DNA of 64,000 nt, taken from assembly GCA_036374795.1 (NCBI GenBank), contig DASUTC010000279.1, positions 1 to 64,000 of the forward strand, given 5' to 3'. The notes below the pieces were generated by a model that saw only the letters and a list, made by a program, of their open reading frames with translations, searched no databases and was not told the origin of the DNA. Position numbers and translations under genes: made by a program. Positions within the stretch are counted from its first letter, which is position 1. Each line of letters opens with the position of its first letter. Shown piece after piece: positions 35,968 through 46,561 of the stretch. The stretch is from Herpetosiphonaceae bacterium (GTDB lineage: Bacteria > Chloroflexota > Chloroflexia > Chloroflexales > Kallotenuaceae).

Positions 35968-38532
35968 CTACGGCTCCGGCGTCGTAGTTGCGGCGGGCAT
36001 TGCCTCAGCAGGCGGCTGCGGCGGCACCGGCAAGTCCACCCGGAGCACACGCGGGCCATTCGCCAGATAGAGCAAGCCGCGCGCCTCGTCTACGGCCAGA
36101 TCGCTGATCTGATTGAGCGGCCCGCGAATGCGCGCCTGGATCTGCTGGATCAGCGTGCCGTCGGTCTTGTTGATCTGGAGCACCCGCTCGTTGCGGGTAT
36201 CGAGGATGTAGATCGAGCCGGGCTGCTTGACCGTCACGCCGTCGGCCTCCAGCATATCCGCCGTCACCAGAAAGCGCGACACCGTGGAGACGGGCACGGC
36301 AAGCTGCGGCGCTGGAAACTCTCTGATCAGACTCCCGGCCTCGAAGACCATGATGCTGGCATCGCGGTTCAGCAGATAGACCAGCCCATCGACCTGCACA
36401 TCGGCGATCTGATCGAGCGGCTTGCTCATGCCGGGCGCAAGCCAGGGCGTCGGCAGATCGGCGTACATGCCGCTGGTATACTTCCAGAGCTGCTTCTCTT
36501 TACTGTCCCACATGTACAAATGCCCGCCGTAGGTCGCCAGCGGCAGATTACCCTCGGCAGGCTCCATCCACTCGGTCTGATTCAGGCGATTGGCAAGCCA
36601 GCCATCGCCGTTGCGCAGATAGACCCGGTAGATCGGCGTGCTGGGATCGCCACGGTCGAACGCGATCACGTTGTCTTCACGCCACAGCACATCGCGGATC
36701 GGATCGGTGACAGACGAATTAATATCCTGATCGGGCTTGAGCAGCGGCTCCTGCTGCCCGCGCTCGTAGAGCACGCCCGCCGCGCGGTCGAGGTAGAAGA
36801 GCGGCGGCTGAGTATCGCTGATCGCCGCCGTGCCCAGCACCACCCGCTCGATCAGCCCCTGGCCGCCCGGCAGCGTCGCGACGGACTCGAAATCGTCGAT
36901 GAAGCCGATACGATTAATCTCGGCCATCGCGCGATCGTAGTCGGTGCGCACGGCCAGATAGCGTGTCCAGACAGCGCTCTTGGTCGTCGTGATCAAGCCG
37001 CTTGCCACCAGCTTACCGACATCATCGTTCAAGGCCGACTCTGCCGCCTCAAGCTGCCGCTGCGCCACAACGCCATCCTGGGCCTGACGTGCCTGCGCGA
37101 CCGCCTCGGTTACTTTGGCGAGCGCCAGTTCGATCGTGCGCTGATCGCTCTGCCGGTTTTGACGGATGCCGAAGATCACCAGCATCGCCACAACGCCGAC
37201 GATCAAGAAAATATTGAGCCAGGGCAGCGGCGGTCGCTGCCTGCGATACGATAACCCTTTGAGCCGCAAACCCTGGGCCGGCTGCCGCTCCACCGGTCGG
37301 GCAGTTCGACGCGGCACATTGGCGACACTGCCCATGGTCATCGCCAGCAGCGAGTGAATCGGCAGCAGGATTCGATCGCCCAGGGTCGGCGGCGGCGGCG
37401 CTGGCTTGCGTGGCAGCGCCGCAAAATCAACAGGCGTGCCCGTATTGTCGGAGAGATCGATCTGGCGATTACGGCGGGGCACTGCCGGAGGCCGCACCAT
37501 GCCGCCGTAGTCGCCCTCGCCCAAAAACGCGCTCGGCGGCAGCGGCATCACGTCGGCCACCGGCAGCGTATCGATCAGCGTGAGCGGCGCGGCATTTCGC
37601 TGACCGTTGGACGGCGGAGCCGCAACCGTTGTGGGCAATGCCGCACCGACAGCCAGCTGCTCGTGCGGCGTACCGGGGTCCGACGGGGCAGGCTGCGACC
37701 GTGGCGCACGCGAGGAGCGACCCAGCCAGCCGCCCAGCCGCCCTGCCACCTTTGGGCGCTCAGCGTGCGGCTCAGGCTCGGCGGGCGCGACCGGCGTATC
37801 CTGAACTTCGGGCGCTGCGCCGGGCACCGCCTCGATCACGATCGCGTGCGCTTCGGGCAGATGCGCTGATCGACACGCATGGTACAGCTCATCGGCGATC
37901 GTCGCGGCATCCGAGTAGCAGATCAACTGCTCGGTCTGCTGCTTGCCGAGCAGACGAACGAGGTTCGACGAGCACAGCACCAGCGTATCGCCCGGCTGAA
38001 TCACCGAGCGAAAGAACTCCGGCTCTGAGCCGAGGCTGGTGCCGAGCGAGCCCTGGCGATGCGTCGCCGAGAGATCGGCGCCGTTGGTCCACGACAGCGG
38101 CACCGGCAGCGCGCGGAGCCTGGAGGTATGCGCGATAAACGCCTGCGAGGGCGGCACCTGCGTGATGAACACATCGGAGCCGTGAATCACCGCGCAGGTA
38201 CAGCCGACCAGCGCCCGCTTGTGCGGCGGCGCGTTATAGTTGTGCTGATACAGCGCGGCGTTAGCGGCCTTGAGCGCGTGGCGCAACGACGACGTGATGC
38301 TCATCGAGCCGTCGGCATAGAACGTTTCGCGGATCGTTCGAGCCACCAGCGTACATGCCTGCCGTCCCCGCGCGACATCGCCCTCCGCCTCGACGACCAG
38401 CACGAGCTGGCCTTTGCGTGCTTCGGGCGAAAACGGCGAGCGCGGCGCGCTCACGACGATCATGTCGCTATGCACCTGGCGAATGCCGCTAACGAGCCCC
38501 CACTGACTGATTGTTGTATGAAATTTGGACAT
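35968..38532 (-). CDS. PP2C-like/beta-propeller membrane protein (probable pseudophosphatase)
   Basis: 854 aa. The N-terminal 250 residues follow the PP2C fold order (IVVSAPRSPFSPEARKGQ, then TCAVIHGSDVFITQV, then GDTLVLCSSNLV). The catalytic motif VADGMGG is replaced by LVLVVEAEGDV, and metal-binding Asp residues are absent. A disordered Pro/Ala linker (about 260-450) and one membrane helix (WLNIFLIVGVVAMLVIFGI) precede a helical stalk and an extracytoplasmic beta-propeller with repeated YLLNRD/YILDTRN strands. It probably senses or binds rather than dephosphorylates. The start at 38532 lacks a ribosome binding site but lies 5 nt after the stop of a small leader frame with a strong one. Confidence 0.7.
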   Translation of the reverse strand: MSKFHTTISQWGLVSGIRQVHSDMIVVSAPRSPFSPEARKGQLVLVVEAEGDVARGRQACTLVARTIRETFYADGSMSITSSLRHALKAANAALYQHNYNAPPHKRALVGCTCAVIHGSDVFITQVPPSQAFIAHTSRLRALPVPLSWTNGADLSATHRQGSLGTSLGSEPEFFRSVIQPGDTLVLCSSNLVRLLGKQQTEQLICYSDAATIADELYHACRSAHLPEAHAIVIEAVPGAAPEVQDTPVAPAEPEPHAERPKVAGRLGGWLGRSSRAPRSQPAPSDPGTPHEQLAVGAALPTTVAAPPSNGQRNAAPLTLIDTLPVADVMPLPPSAFLGEGDYGGMVRPPAVPRRNRQIDLSDNTGTPVDFAALPRKPAPPPPTLGDRILLPIHSLLAMTMGSVANVPRRTARPVERQPAQGLRLKGLSYRRQRPPLPWLNIFLIVGVVAMLVIFGIRQNRQSDQRTIELALAKVTEAVAQARQAQDGVVAQRQLEAAESALNDDVGKLVASGLITTTKSAVWTRYLAVRTDYDRAMAEINRIGFIDDFESVATLPGGQGLIERVVLGTAAISDTQPPLFYLDRAAGVLYERGQQEPLLKPDQDINSSVTDPIRDVLWREDNVIAFDRGDPSTPIYRVYLRNGDGWLANRLNQTEWMEPAEGNLPLATYGGHLYMWDSKEKQLWKYTSGMYADLPTPWLAPGMSKPLDQIADVQVDGLVYLLNRDASIMVFEAGSLIREFPAPQLAVPVSTVSRFLVTADMLEADGVTVKQPGSIYILDTRNERVLQINKTDGTLIQQIQARIRGPLNQISDLAVDEARGLLYLANGPRVLRVDLPVPPQPPAEAMPAATTTPEP

Positions 38533-38537
38533 CGTGC

Positions 38538-38615
38538 CTACGCAAGAGTGCGTGATTGTGAGTTTCTGCTCTGAGGCAGCGCCAGACATCGGAATGCTGC
38601 CGGATCGTGCCTCAT
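38538..38615 (-). CDS. Possible 25-aa leader peptide of the PP2C-like gene
   Basis: ATG with GAGGAG 3 nt upstream encodes MRHDPAAFRCLALPQSRN and seven more residues, ending 5 nt before the PP2C-like ATG. Position and ribosome binding site suggest it drives translation of the next gene by coupling. It may be chance. Confidence 0.35.
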   Translation of the reverse strand: MRHDPAAFRCLALPQSRNSQSRTLA

Positions 38616-38643: not shown

Positions 38644-39393
38644 CTACACGTCCAACGGCCAGCGCCGGAGCGTATCCAGCCACCGCTGGTTGGTCAGATC
38701 GAAATGGACAGGAGTCACCGAAATGTAACCGTTGGCGACCGCCGCCGTATCGGTGCCCTCGGTCAGATCGCCTTCCGGCTCGCCGCCGCCGAGCCAGTAG
38801 TACGGACGACCGCGCGGATCATGGCGCACCACCAGCTCATCGCGATATACCCGCCGTCCCAGGCGCGTGATCGCCACGCCGCGAATTGGGCTATGCGGCA
38901 CGTTGACGTTCAGCACCACCTCAGGCGACAGATCATGCTCGACCGCAAGCCGGGCAAGCCTGGCGGCAAATGCCGCCGCTGGCCTGAAATCGGCATCGCG
39001 GTGCCCGTCCAGCGACACAGCGATCGACGGAATGCCCATGATCGTCCCCTCGCGCGCGGCGGCAACCGTGCCAGAATAGCTGACATCGTTGCCCAGGTTC
39101 GGCCCGATGTTAATCCCCGACACCACCAGATCGGGGCGGCGCTTCAGGATGCCGAGCAGCGACAGGGCAACACAGTCGCCGGGCGTGCCGGTGCAGACAA
39201 ATCCTTCGCGTCCGTCGGCCAGCGACACCGGATCGACGCGCAGCGGATCGAATAATGTTCGCGCTGCCGACGCGGCGCTCCAGTTGCGTTCGGGCGCAAC
39301 CACTACTGTCTCGCCGATCGTGTCGAGCGCCTGCCGGAGCGCGAGCAAGCCCGGACTTTGAATGCCATCGTCGTTTGTCACCAGAATATACAT
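38644..39393 (-). CDS. surE: 5'/3'-nucleotidase SurE
   Basis: 249 aa. Starts MYILVTNDDGIQSPG with the metal-binding DD pair; other family motifs are VVAPERNWSAAS, GTPGDCVAL, VVSGINIGPNLGNDV and SGTVAAAREG. SurE dephosphorylates nucleoside monophosphates and short polyphosphate and is linked to stationary-phase survival. Length is typical. GAGGTG lies 5 nt before the ATG. It stands upstream of the PP2C-like gene, about 110 bp away, and that gene has its own promoter in surE's end. Confidence 0.95.
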   Translation of the reverse strand: MYILVTNDDGIQSPGLLALRQALDTIGETVVVAPERNWSAASAARTLFDPLRVDPVSLADGREGFVCTGTPGDCVALSLLGILKRRPDLVVSGINIGPNLGNDVSYSGTVAAAREGTIMGIPSIAVSLDGHRDADFRPAAAFAARLARLAVEHDLSPEVVLNVNVPHSPIRGVAITRLGRRVYRDELVVRHDPRGRPYYWLGGGEPEGDLTEGTDTAAVANGYISVTPVHFDLTNQRWLDTLRRWPLDV

Positions 39394-39500: not shown

Positions 39501-40436
39501 TCAGTGGCATTTACGCAGCAGCCCAGCGTCATCGTCGTCGTCATCAGGGCAGGGCGTGGGCGTTGGTTTGCGCGTCGGCTCCGGCGTCGGCTCCGGCGTC
39601 GGCTCCGGCGTAGCGATAGGCGGCACGGTTGGCTGCGGCAGGATCGTCGGCAGCAGGGGCGTAAGCGTCGGGAGAATGGGTAGTCCTGTCGGCTCCGGCG
39701 TAGCGGTAGGCTGCGGTGTTGGCTCCGGCGTCGGCGGCACATACGTCGGCACCTGAGTCGGGTCAGGGGGCTGCTCGGTCGGAGCGGAGCGCGGCGGCGT
39801 GCTGGTGGGGATATGTGGCGGCGCGGGCCGCTCCTCTCTGGGCAGATCGGTCGGCGTTGGCGTCGGCATGCTTCGGCTCGGCGTCGGCGTGGGCGGCGCA
39901 GGCGCGGCGGCTGGCGGCTCTGGAACGCGCGCGCTGGTCGGCGCGGCAGGAATCTCCTCCGGCAGGGCAGAAGCCGTCACACGCGGCGGAGTCGGCGTGG
40001 GCGTTCCGCGCGTCGAGCGCTGTGGCGTGGCACTGGGACGTAGCGCCGTTGGAGTTGCGCGCCTAGCGCCAGGAGACAGAGGAGCATCCGACGGTGGCCG
40101 AACGGAAGCTGTTGGAAGCCGTTCGTCGTCGATCTGCAAAACCGGCAGCGTGGTCGGACCGCCAAAGAAATCAAGGATACGCTCGGCCATGCTTGGATCG
40201 GTCGGCGTCGGCTCCTGGTACTCCGGCGGCAGCACCGACATCGCCTCCGCAGGCACGGTCGGATGAGCCGTCGGCATGATCCAGATGATCTGGCCCTTCG
40301 GTGTAACCTGAACGCGCGAGCCGCTGGCAATTGCCCAGCCGACGGCACCGCTGATACTTAAACACATAGCTGCTGTGAGCAGATGGATGCGATACGCAGA
40401 GGCTATGCTGCTCCAACCCCTCGGCAATCGGGCCAT
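39501..40436 (-). CDS. Pro/Thr-rich anchored surface protein A
   Basis: 311 aa. Short cytoplasmic start, one membrane helix (HLLTAAMCLSISGAVGWAIA), a brief folded part (VTPKGQIIWIMPT, then ILDFFGG) and about 200 residues of Pro/Thr/Ala low complexity, with PTPEPTP repeats. It ends TPCPDDDDDDAGLLRKCH, two cysteines 14 residues apart. The tail resembles that of its neighbour, pointing to a shared attachment or recognition role, possibly a disulfide loop. The ATG at 40436 has AAGGA 5 nt upstream. The PT region is encoded by near-exact DNA repeats (ggctccggcgtc) and may vary in length. Confidence 0.7.
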   Translation of the reverse strand: MARLPRGWSSIASAYRIHLLTAAMCLSISGAVGWAIASGSRVQVTPKGQIIWIMPTAHPTVPAEAMSVLPPEYQEPTPTDPSMAERILDFFGGPTTLPVLQIDDERLPTASVRPPSDAPLSPGARRATPTALRPSATPQRSTRGTPTPTPPRVTASALPEEIPAAPTSARVPEPPAAAPAPPTPTPSRSMPTPTPTDLPREERPAPPHIPTSTPPRSAPTEQPPDPTQVPTYVPPTPEPTPQPTATPEPTGLPILPTLTPLLPTILPQPTVPPIATPEPTPEPTPEPTRKPTPTPCPDDDDDDAGLLRKCH

Positions 40437-40504
40437 GTCCATCCTTCCGGTCTAGCTCAGGATCACGGCGCATCTTCGGAAAACAGCCGCTTCTGCATCA
40501 GGAA

Positions 40505-40545
40505 GGGACATTGTGGGGAGTCCCCCACCCCGGCCTGTCGGCGCA
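40505..40545 (-). repeat. GC-rich element, copy 4
   Basis: Read on the minus strand GCGCCGACAGGCCGGGG, then GGACTCCCCACAATGTCCC and TCCTGATG; right half as in copies 5 and 7. It lies between the two PT-rich genes. Confidence 0.5.
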
Positions 40546-40695
40546 CGAGGAAGCATCCGTGTGGCCCGGTGGGTGTATGCGGGATGGGTGCGGGCAGTTG
40601 CCGTATTGTAGAAGACGCGCTAGAGCATGTCAATGCTCACACAACAATCCGATCTAGATGGCAGATCATGGCTGCTGTGATGGTCCGACCCGACA

Positions 40696-41793
40696 TTATT
40701 TACACTTCTTCAAGGGACCCGCGCTACCGCCCCGATCGTGTGGACACGGCGTTGGCTCCGGCGTTGGCTCCGGCGTTGGCTCCGGCGGCACTTCGGTCGG
40801 CGCGGCGGTTGGTTCGGGCGGCACCGCGGTCGGCGCGGCGGTCGGCTCCGGCGGCACCTCGGTTGGTGCAACTGTCGGCGGCAGATCCGTCGGCGCGGCG
40901 GTTGGTTCGGGCGGCGCGGTGGGCACTGCCGTCGGCGGCAGATCCGTCGGCCTTGGCGTCTTGGTCGGCCTTGGCGTCTTGGTCGGCTCCGGCTGCCTGG
41001 TTGGCGTTGGCTCCGGCGGCACCGCGGTCGGCACGGCAGTTGGTTTCGGCAGCGGCGTGACCGGCGCGGGTGGTAGCGGGCTAGATGTTGGCGGCACACG
41101 CGGCGGTGCTGCGGTCGAGCTTGGCACGGCGGTAGCGGTGCGCGGCGGCGCAGGTGCCGGGCGCTGTGGATCGGATGGCTGCTCCCGAACGGGCGTGGCG
41201 GACCACACTGGCGTAGCGGTGCGCGTCGTCTGAGGAGGTGGGAGAACATGCGACGGCGTTGGGCTTCTGGACGGCAGCGCGGTTGCTGTCGATTGCCTGC
41301 GCGGCGTGGGCGTCGCCGCACGGCGGGGCGTCGCCGATGGAGTGAGGCGCGCAGGCTGTCTGCCAGAGCCGGAGGTTGGCGTGACGGTCGGGCTGGTAGC
41401 TATCGCCGCTCGGCTGCGGGTCGGCGTTGCCATCGGCCCGGCTGCTCTGCGCGACGTAGGACCGACGATCAGCTCAGGCGGGGCCTCAATGGGCGGCGCG
41501 GATGGACCCGGCCCGAAGCCAAAGAAGTCGAGCACGGCGGCGGTGATGCCGGGCTGCGAGGTTGGAGGAGCAATCGTCTCAGCGCGCCCTACGACAGCAG
41601 CGCCAGGCTGAGGCAGCGTGGTGGGCGCGCCTGTCGGCTCGATCCAGACCAGCTTACCGTCGGGCGCGATCGTCGTGCTGCTGGAAACATTCCAGCCGAC
41701 AGCGCCGCTGACCAGCAGGCACAGCCCCAGCAGCGCAAGCTGCAAGCGCTGCTGGGGGAGTATCTGGCGCCAGATCACAAGCAGCCGCTCCAT
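40696..41793 (-). CDS. Pro/Thr-rich anchored surface protein B
   Basis: 365 aa paralogue of the gene downstream. Same order: membrane helix (LALLGLCLLVSGAVGW, sharing SGAVGW), then IAPDGKLVWIEPT (compare TPKGQIIWIMPT) and VLDFFGF. A long Pro/Thr/Ala region follows with PTAAPTxVPPEP units, ending TPCPHDRGGSAGPLKKCK. The C-terminal motif C-P-x(9-10)-[LP]-[RK]-K-C-[HK] is shared with protein A. AGGAGG lies 6 nt before the ATG at 41793; an ATG 27 nt upstream is disfavoured. Likely a cell-surface stalk protein; function unknown. Confidence 0.7.
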   Translation of the reverse strand: MERLLVIWRQILPQQRLQLALLGLCLLVSGAVGWNVSSSTTIAPDGKLVWIEPTGAPTTLPQPGAAVVGRAETIAPPTSQPGITAAVLDFFGFGPGPSAPPIEAPPELIVGPTSRRAAGPMATPTRSRAAIATSPTVTPTSGSGRQPARLTPSATPRRAATPTPRRQSTATALPSRSPTPSHVLPPPQTTRTATPVWSATPVREQPSDPQRPAPAPPRTATAVPSSTAAPPRVPPTSSPLPPAPVTPLPKPTAVPTAVPPEPTPTRQPEPTKTPRPTKTPRPTDLPPTAVPTAPPEPTAAPTDLPPTVAPTEVPPEPTAAPTAVPPEPTAAPTEVPPEPTPEPTPEPTPCPHDRGGSAGPLKKCK

Positions 41794-41993
41794 CTCCATC
41801 CTCCTGAAGGCACCATGCACCGGTGTCTTCTATAGCCCGATGGAAAGATGGCATCAACAGAGGGGGCATCGTTTGGTCCGACCATTGTATAGGCGCAGCT
41901 ACGCTCCTGTCAATCGGAATATGCTGTTCTCCTGCCGGACGCATACGGCAGGTTGATACCATCACGGTTGGAAGTTGGGGTGTCGATGCGCGG

Positions 41994-42926: not shown

Positions 42927-43658
42927 TCAGTGGAAGGATAGATTATATTGCTGCTGCCACTCGACGACCGCATGATTGAGCTGCTCGCGCGCCAAGTAGC
43001 CGCAGCGTACCAGGACATCGCCGAGCAGCACGCGGTGGCCTTTGCGCTTCAGATCGGCCTGCTGTGCCAATCCCTGATGCAGTTGAGCGCGCGTGACCAG
43101 CCCACGGCGAACGAGATACTCGCCGATCTGCATCGTGACGCCCTCGGTCGTCGGCAGCGTTTCGATCTGCGTGGCGACGGCAGCCTCAAGCTGCTGAGGC
43201 CGAACGAGCTTCATGCGCAGCAGAACCTCGCCCAGGCGCAGGGGCTTTTTCTTGCGGGCCAGACGAGCCTGCTCCTTGAGCGCCGCATCGAGCTGCTGCT
43301 GCGTGATCACGCGCGCCTCGACCAGCGCCTCGCCGAGCATGTAGCGCCGCTGCGGCGTGGACGGCGGCGGTGCCGCTGTCTGAGGCCGGAGCACGGCGGC
43401 CTCCTCCAGCAGCAAGCGAATGTTGAGCACATCGCGCGCCTCTTGCGCCTGCTTGTGGTGGGGGTTGATCGTGAGCAGATGATCGATACAGCGCAAGGCT
43501 TGCTCGACAGTAGGCATCACATGGCTGAGCCAAAGCCAGGCGGCCTCGTTTCGGGGGTCGTGCTTGAGTACACGGATGAAACAAACCCGCGCCTGCTCTT
43601 TGTCGCCGGCGCGCGTTGCGGCGATACCAGCCTGCAAATCAGCCGTAGCTAGGTCCAT
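42927..43658 (-). CDS. TPR protein with two MshEN/T2SSE_N-like repeats
   Basis: 243 aa. N-terminal TPR-like helices (GIAATRAGDKEQARVCFIRV, then HDPRNEAAWLWLS). A Pro-rich linker is followed by two half-domain repeats of the type II secretion ATPase N-terminus: MLGEALVEARVITQQQLDAA and QIGEYLVRRGLVTRAQLHQG, plus LGEVLLRMKLV and LGDVLVRCGYL. MshEN modules bind c-di-GMP in some ATPases; the binding residues cannot be judged here. No ATPase domain is attached, so it is probably an adaptor. GAGGAG lies 13 nt before the ATG. Confidence 0.75.
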   Translation of the reverse strand: MDLATADLQAGIAATRAGDKEQARVCFIRVLKHDPRNEAAWLWLSHVMPTVEQALRCIDHLLTINPHHKQAQEARDVLNIRLLLEEAAVLRPQTAAPPPSTPQRRYMLGEALVEARVITQQQLDAALKEQARLARKKKPLRLGEVLLRMKLVRPQQLEAAVATQIETLPTTEGVTMQIGEYLVRRGLVTRAQLHQGLAQQADLKRKGHRVLLGDVLVRCGYLAREQLNHAVVEWQQQYNLSFH

Positions 43659-44980: not shown

Positions 44981-46561
44981 ATGCCAGCCGCACCACCGCA
45001 AACAGCACTGCCTGCATTCGATGTCGAACAGCCACGGATTCTGGTTGTGGATGACGATCCGTTTGTCTGTACGGTGGTGCGCAAAACCCTAAGCCGCGAT
45101 CAGTATCGGGTCGAGACAGTCACCCGTCCAGAGGTCGCGCTGCAACGCCTGGCCGCCGAGCCCTTCGATCTGCTGCTGACCGACATCAGCATGCCCGAAA
45201 TCAACGGATTGGAGCTTGCCGAGCGGGCACGGGCGCAGCACGCCTCGCTGGGCATCGTGGTCATGACCGGCTACGGCTCGTTCGACAACATCAGCCGGGC
45301 CGTGCGTACCGGCATTGCCGACTTCATCACCAAGCCGTTCGACATCGAGGAGCTGCGCCTGACGGTCGCGCGGGCGCTGGAGCGGCAGCGGCTGCAACGC
45401 AACAACGTTCGGCTACAAACGCTTGTCAAGGTCTTTGAGTACAGCCAGACGATCAACAGCACGCTGGACCTCGACGCGCTCTATCACATCGTCATCGATA
45501 TTGTCCGGCGCGAGACGGGCGCAACTGCGGTGATGATCTGGATCGCCGACGAGCAAGATCCCTGCGTCGCGGCCTCCGGCATTGACGCCGATCAGTTGAG
45601 CGCGGTCGAGGATCTGGCCCGGCACGTCTTTGCGACCGCGCAGGTCCCCAGCGCGCAGCACGGCATGCCGATCGCGCCGGGCCGGACCGGCAAAGGGGCG
45701 GTCATGGCGCTGCCGCTGGCCGTTCACGACGAGCGGCTCGGCGTCTTAGTGGCGGCGTATGACGACGGGCAGAAGGCAGCGCTGGCCGAGCTGCTGGCGA
45801 TCATTGCCAATCAAACATCGCTGGCGATCCGCAACGCGCGCCAGTTTGCGGCGCTGCGAGAGCTCGATCATCTCAAGAGCGAATTCATCGGCATCGCATC
45901 GCACGAGCTGCGCACGCCACTCTCGCTTGTGCTGGGCTATAGCTCGCTGCTGCGGCAGTACCTTCAGAGCCACGAGAGCGGCTACTTACAGCAGGTGCTC
46001 AAGGGCGCGCACCGCATCAGCGACATCGTCGACGATCTGGTCAACCTGCGCCAGTCCGATCTCCAGCAGATGACGCTCGATCTGACGGTCTTCGATGTCT
46101 GGGAGATGCTGCGGGAAACCGTCGCGGAGCTACGGGCGCTCGCCAACGAGCGCGAGATCCCACTCCATCTGCAACACCCATCGGAGCCGCTGCTGATCCG
46201 GGCTGATCGCGATAAAATAACCTTAGCGCTGGCGAATCTGGTCGATAATGCGCTGAAGTTTAACAGACCTGGAGGTTCAGTCACGATCATAGGCACGTAC
46301 GCCGCCACCAACCGACGAGAGGTACGAATCGACGTATGCGATACCGGTATCGGCATTACGCAGCGTGATCTGTCGCGGATCTTTGAGCGTTTTTACCAGA
46401 CTGCCCCGTCGATCACCCGCATTCGGAATGGCATGGGCATCGGTCTAGCGATCACCAAAAGCTTCGTCGAAGTGCATGGCGGGCGGGTGCAGGTGGAGAG
46501 CACACCAGGGCGGGGCAGCACCTTCCATGTGTACCTGCCGGTCGCTCCACCGGATGGCTAG
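44981..46561 (+). CDS. Hybrid receiver-GAF-histidine kinase
   Basis: 526 aa, apparently cytoplasmic. Receiver domain 18-135 with VDDDP, phospho-acceptor Asp68 (LLTDISMPE), MTGYG and conserved Lys in TKPFD. A GAF-like domain follows at about 150-295, HisKA with His308 in SHELRTPLS, and HATPase with N box NLVDNALKFN, DTGIGI and GMGIGLAI. The order receiver first, kinase last suggests it is itself controlled by phosphorylation from another kinase. It begins 3 nt after the upstream gene, with TAAGGA abutting the ATG. Confidence 0.93.
   Translation: MPAAPPQTALPAFDVEQPRILVVDDDPFVCTVVRKTLSRDQYRVETVTRPEVALQRLAAEPFDLLLTDISMPEINGLELAERARAQHASLGIVVMTGYGSFDNISRAVRTGIADFITKPFDIEELRLTVARALERQRLQRNNVRLQTLVKVFEYSQTINSTLDLDALYHIVIDIVRRETGATAVMIWIADEQDPCVAASGIDADQLSAVEDLARHVFATAQVPSAQHGMPIAPGRTGKGAVMALPLAVHDERLGVLVAAYDDGQKAALAELLAIIANQTSLAIRNARQFAALRELDHLKSEFIGIASHELRTPLSLVLGYSSLLRQYLQSHESGYLQQVLKGAHRISDIVDDLVNLRQSDLQQMTLDLTVFDVWEMLRETVAELRALANEREIPLHLQHPSEPLLIRADRDKITLALANLVDNALKFNRPGGSVTIIGTYAATNRREVRIDVCDTGIGITQRDLSRIFERFYQTAPSITRIRNGMGIGLAITKSFVEVHGGRVQVESTPGRGSTFHVYLPVAPPDG

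Follow-up and report, generated by a model that had tools for sequence, protein, structure and literature searches.

A genus-level two-cysteine tip on tandem Pro/Thr-rich, putative surface-stalk proteins of Kallotenuaceae-like Chloroflexota

Two adjacent genes on the minus strand of the window (the whole 64,000-nucleotide stretch of DNA analysed here) encode Pro/Thr-rich bitopic proteins, referred to as P1 (311 aa, 39501..40436) and P2 (365 aa, 40696..41793), each of which ends in a short tip bearing two cysteines. The tip is a real but genus-level variation on ordinary bacterial surface-stalk proteins. The family to which P1 and P2 belong is undescribed and, as far as the sequence searches reach, restricted to Kallotenuaceae-like genomes. 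At a probability of about one half, P1 and P2 are paralogous, wall-spanning flexible surface tethers, with a disulfide that either closes the tip or cross-links it to a partner.

P1 and P2 are real genes, each with its own near-consensus promoter. The starts at 41793 (P2, MERLL) and 40436 (P1, MARLP) are backed by Shine-Dalgarno-like sequences (AGGAGG and GGAAGG, respectively) and by the starts of the homologues; possible alternatives lie upstream at 41799 (ATG) and 41820 (GTG) for P2 and at 40442 (ATG) for P1. Promoter-like elements with identical hexamers occur on the minus strand 90 nt before the P2 start (TTGACA-18-TACAAT, 41884..41913) and 168 nt before the P1 start (TTGACA-17-TACAAT, 40605..40633), and two such elements compare with 0.4 expected from shuffles of the region. 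In the sister species (G055, contig JAFAYS010000482.1), the P1 promoter resides 91 nt before the start and retains both hexamers, the TCTTC before the -10 and part of the spacer, and no such near-consensus promoter was seen before any of the tip-less relatives checked. Between the two species, the 92 N-terminal codons of P1 have accumulated 29, 21 and 45 substitutions at codon positions 1, 2 and 3, with dN of 0.34 and dS of 1.02, and by this comparison the N-terminal domain (N-domain) evolves under purifying constraint. The P1 promoter also overlaps a perfect inverted repeat, GAGCAT-4-ATGCTC.

Both proteins are assembled from the same parts in the same order. The conserved N-domain of 92 aa (minus strand, 40161..40436 in P1 and 41518..41793 in P2) begins with a short basic segment, followed by a hydrophobic membrane helix ending in SGAVGW, continues with the landmark PxGxxxWIxPT (PKGQIIWIMPT in P1; PDGKLVWIEPT, a putative hairpin, in P2) and closes with an xxLDFFG stretch, VLDFFG in P2, that is probably helical. 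Downstream is the Pro/Thr-rich stalk, of 202 aa in P1 (39555..40160) and 256 aa in P2 (40750..41517), with 30-32% Pro and 18% Thr, which leads into the C-terminal tips PCPDDDDDDAGLLRKCH (P1, 39504..39554) and PCPHDRGGSAGPLKKCK (P2, 40699..40749), likewise on the minus strand. The tips share the pattern PCP-x(11)-KC[HK], in which 13 residues separate the two cysteines, and neither protein has any other cysteine outside its membrane helix. The charge of the tips differs, being acidic in P1 (DDDDDD) and basic in P2 (LKKCK).

The original prediction had described both proteins as a helix with SGAVGW, WIxPT, DFFG, a Pro/Thr stalk and a two-cysteine tail, and all five landmarks are found in both. 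Its statement that the repeats are nearly exact at the DNA level applies to local arrays of 12-bp and 18-bp units, which are 100% identical over 2-3 copies; most of the stalk is degenerate, with 33- and 57-bp units matching at 80-85%. The suggestion that stalk length may vary is weakly supported by the P1 stalk of the sister species, which has 235 residues compared with 202 in the window genome. Structure prediction for the N-domain of P1, in a model that begins two residues earlier than the annotated start and is numbered accordingly, gives a mean pLDDT of 64, with a helix at 15-40 (pLDDT about 80-92) and, at low confidence, a hairpin at 43-55 and a helix at 83-92.

No Pfam or NCBIfam model matches the whole P1 or P2 protein, one stalk end weakly matches PF04886 (E 0.008, under the cut-off), and literature searches turned up no account of these proteins. 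They are assigned here to a Kallotenuaceae surE-linked Pro/Thr-rich family, defined by an N-terminal helix with [SG]xxGW, W.xPT and DFFG, followed by a Pro/Thr-rich stalk. Proteins with this helix, these landmarks and a stalk occur in five genomes at E 1e-29 to 1e-41, the rows of the N-domain profile having come from those same five Kallotenuaceae-like genomes. The profile detects homologues in five of the six genomes of the window's own taxonomic family and otherwise gives, across the class (158 genomes), a single marginal match (G122, E 6e-4). An earlier profile of three rows, built from the window genome only, had already recovered these relatives at E 4e-7 to 1e-29; its weak matches in other taxonomic families (E 1e-4 to 1e-2) were discarded as chance membrane-helix matches and disappeared with the wider profile. 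The viral contigs searched contain no relative of P1 or P2.

The genomic setting of the family is also shared. In four genomes (the window genome, G055, G053 and the Kallotenue-like G052) the family gene or pair is positioned directly upstream of surE and a gene for a PP2C-like/propeller protein, which in the window occupy 38644..39393 (PF01975) and 35968..38589 (likely start about 38529), both on the minus strand. The sister species has the same tandem pair with tips upstream of surE, and G052 has a single-copy member. A methyltransferase gene adjoins a family member in G053 and G054, and also adjoins a third paralogue in the window genome (contig C168, L055 9614-10639). Based on these positions by surE and the methyltransferase gene, the family was probably already present in the ancestor of the group, one genus having since gained copies. 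The cluster of G053 has its upstream half matched by the neighbourhood of the third paralogue on C168, so the window genome probably carries this cluster in split form. L099, a more distant relative, has the PP2C-like gene with neither surE nor a Pro/Thr gene beside it.

The neighbour at 35968-38589 is a conserved protein of 850-870 aa, encoded after surE in each of the four genomes in which the junction is seen. Its N-terminal part is PP2C-like (NF033484, E 6e-8, far below the cut-off) and its C-terminal part propeller-like; it also has a membrane helix, and it has no Pfam match. Elsewhere in the window, the gene at 42927-43658 joins a TPR-like start and a DUF4388-like stretch (below the cut-off) in one protein; a response regulator/histidine kinase hybrid is encoded nearby (44981-46561).

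The two-cysteine tip is not a feature of the whole family: its only carriers are the tandem pairs of two species, both in one genus. There it is present in all four copies (in the sister species, P1 ends ...PCPRDDDDDGVVDRGCDD and P2 ends ...DCPGDQGPLKKCK), the first cysteine residing in CP and the last lying 1-2 residues from the end in every case. The cysteine spacing is 9 in one of the four and 13 otherwise, and the stalks are free of cysteine, that of the sister-species P2 being known in part, up to where its contig ends inside the repeats. Other members end in PSPEAIGGE (the third paralogue), GPDRAI (the Kallotenue-like protein), EKSDDQSPP (G054), and VDGL and KEPKGPKK (G053, whose stalks contain runs of N and whose tails were read in frame after the gap). 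The extreme C-terminus had been called conserved: this holds for the cysteines of the sister-species orthologues, but the third paralogue and the other relatives end differently. Loss of these cysteines in orthologues had been named as grounds for abandoning the idea, and both are kept in both copies of the sister species.

Around the cysteines the sequence has drifted. Identity between the P1 orthologues is 53% in the N-domain and 54% in the aligned stalk (40%, and at most 47%, for shuffled stalks), and about one half in the tip, so that tip residues other than the cysteines are conserved no better than the N-domain or stalk; P1 and P2 share 38% identity in the N-domain. With four known tips, from two species, the case for constraint on the cysteines is a weak one. 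The tip likely had a single origin; in the N-domain tree, in which four of six inner branches are unresolved, the tailed proteins form one clade in 4% of bootstrap trees. It could be that the tip has no specific function and is a chance C-terminus of the ancestor of the two species that was inherited by both duplicates, which would be consistent with its confinement to one genus, the freely varying ends of the relatives and the drift of the non-cysteine residues. Retention of the cysteines in all four copies, despite N-domain identities of 53% between orthologues and 38% between P1 and P2, makes this rather unlikely.

Further tails were sought by DNA pattern rather than by protein, in a sample of 400 Chloroflexota genomes that does not include G053-G055. 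The specific pattern, ACNCCNTGYCCN{19,43}AARTGYMANTRR, occurs at two places in the window's own genome and at three elsewhere in the 399 further genomes, none of those three being an open reading frame that runs to a stop codon. The original prediction had proposed a search for C-terminal CP-x(8,12)-KC across Chloroflexota; with the specific DNA pattern, no in-frame tail was found in the 399 other genomes. With a looser pattern, the window's own genome shows the tail on no Pro/Thr-rich protein other than P1 and P2. A wide pattern applied to 82 genomes matched in most, at a rate not far above that of a reversed control, and among the matches listed (stop-ended and translated) [RK]KC near the end occurs solely in the two genes of the window. 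The rarity of the pattern, together with the recurrence of both cysteines in both copies of the sister species, argues against chance as the source of the tip.

The same searches bear on whether the tip is a C-terminal sorting or processing tag common to many secreted proteins, as had initially been considered. Its location at the extreme C-terminus, after a linker, would suit such a tag. Nevertheless, the tail is in frame in no further protein of this genome or of the 399 others, and the relatives end differently; moreover, neither a hydrophobic helix nor a basic tail follows the tip, and the N-terminal helix already provides an anchor. Because the in-frame tail is limited to these two genes among 400 genomes, a general sorting tag is scarcely credible.

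Under the preferred reading, that of flexible tethers with a disulfide-bonded tip, the N-terminal helix would anchor the protein in the cytoplasmic membrane with its N-terminus inside, the topology expected from the positive-inside rule because arginines precede the helix. Just outside the membrane, the PxGxxxWIxPT hairpin and the amphipathic xxLDFFG helix would form a short juxtamembrane module, from which the flexible Pro/Thr-rich spacer would carry the tip of 15-17 residues to the surface. Polyproline-type chains measure about 0.3 nm per residue when extended, and an extended stalk of 200-256 residues could span 60-75 nm, enough for a single-membrane wall. A DsbA-like gene (PF13462) and a VKOR gene (PF07884) lie side by side at C179, and the presence of this pair in the genome favours a disulfide-bonded loop or cross-link over a ligand-binding tip. 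The DsbA-VKOR system could oxidise the exported tip cysteines, linking them to one another or to a partner protein. An internal bond would close a charged loop of 13 residues, which might cap the stalk and either shield it against carboxypeptidases or offer a binding surface. A further DsbA-like thioredoxin gene (L111, G000 C276:14687-15184) is read with one in-frame TGA.

Conceivably, the bonds are instead intermolecular, joining P1 to P2 or P1 to P1 tip to tip, or either to another surface protein, to yield a cross-linked outer layer. Both adjacent paralogues keep the tip in both species, the single-copy Kallotenue-like relative lacks it, and the acidic tip of P1 and the basic tip of P2 differ in charge. 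The presence of two cysteines in each tip is better suited to an internal bond, however, and the promoters of P1 and P2 are separate, so intermolecular bonding is regarded as possible but doubtful. The fuller picture, in which disordered, membrane-anchored tethers span the wall and form a covalent outer layer of a single-membrane bacterium through tip-to-tip disulfides, is improbable. Were the tips linked in this manner, they would provide a simple way of tying together the outside of a single-membrane cell; if they are not disulfide-linked, the tip amounts to ordinary surface-protein variation. In either case, P1 and P2 define a small family of uncharacterised envelope proteins that is specific to Kallotenuaceae-like Chloroflexota and whose C-terminal end varies freely between species.

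Comparisons can be drawn with several known systems. The C-terminal CP...KC[H] of the tips looks similar to the SEC-C zinc motif of SecA (C-x-C-x(8)-C-[HC]), and a CP-DDDDDGVVD segment in one orthologue to the thrombospondin type 3 calcium repeat. The tip might be a small metal-binding end, for Ca2+ in the P1 orthologue with CPRDDDDDGVVDRGCDD, which visually resembles DxDxDGxxD, or for Zn2+ through Cys/His, since the KCH and KCK ends resemble the SecA tail PCPCGSGKKFKKCHG of the same genome, found with the same DNA pattern. Yet the CxC pair, and with it the second cysteine of SEC-C (CPC), is absent from all four tips, whose context is not that of a cytosolic SecA-type protein. The loop DxDxDGxxDxxD is intact to D9 only in the sister-species P1 and is broken in the window's proteins, P1 lacking the G and the last D and P2 the acidic run. 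Neither the thrombospondin type 3 nor the SEC-C model of Pfam matches at E up to 10, and metal binding is judged very unlikely.

A lipoprotein assignment was also considered and rejected: Cys25 is preceded by AAM in P1 and LGL in P2 rather than by the lipobox [LVI][ASTVI][GAS]C, and further membrane-like residues follow it. Only the Kallotenue-like homologue (LAGC) fits the lipobox.

LPXTG proteins anchored to the wall by sortase are likewise stalk-like surface proteins, and sortases, as well as PMT-type glycosyltransferases, are encoded in the genome; nothing was found that links either to P1 or P2. Unlike LPXTG substrates, P1 and P2 are anchored by the N-terminus, and their C-termini, read directly, contain no LPXTG, hydrophobic helix or basic tail. 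The architecture is ordinary, and the lineage-specific tip is a modest curiosity. In composition and in their likely role as extended spacers, the stalks of P1 and P2 are akin to the PF04886-type linkers and stalks ('PT repeat') found in bacterial surface proteins; whereas those linkers join two folded domains, the stalk of P1 and P2 ends in a bare two-cysteine tip.
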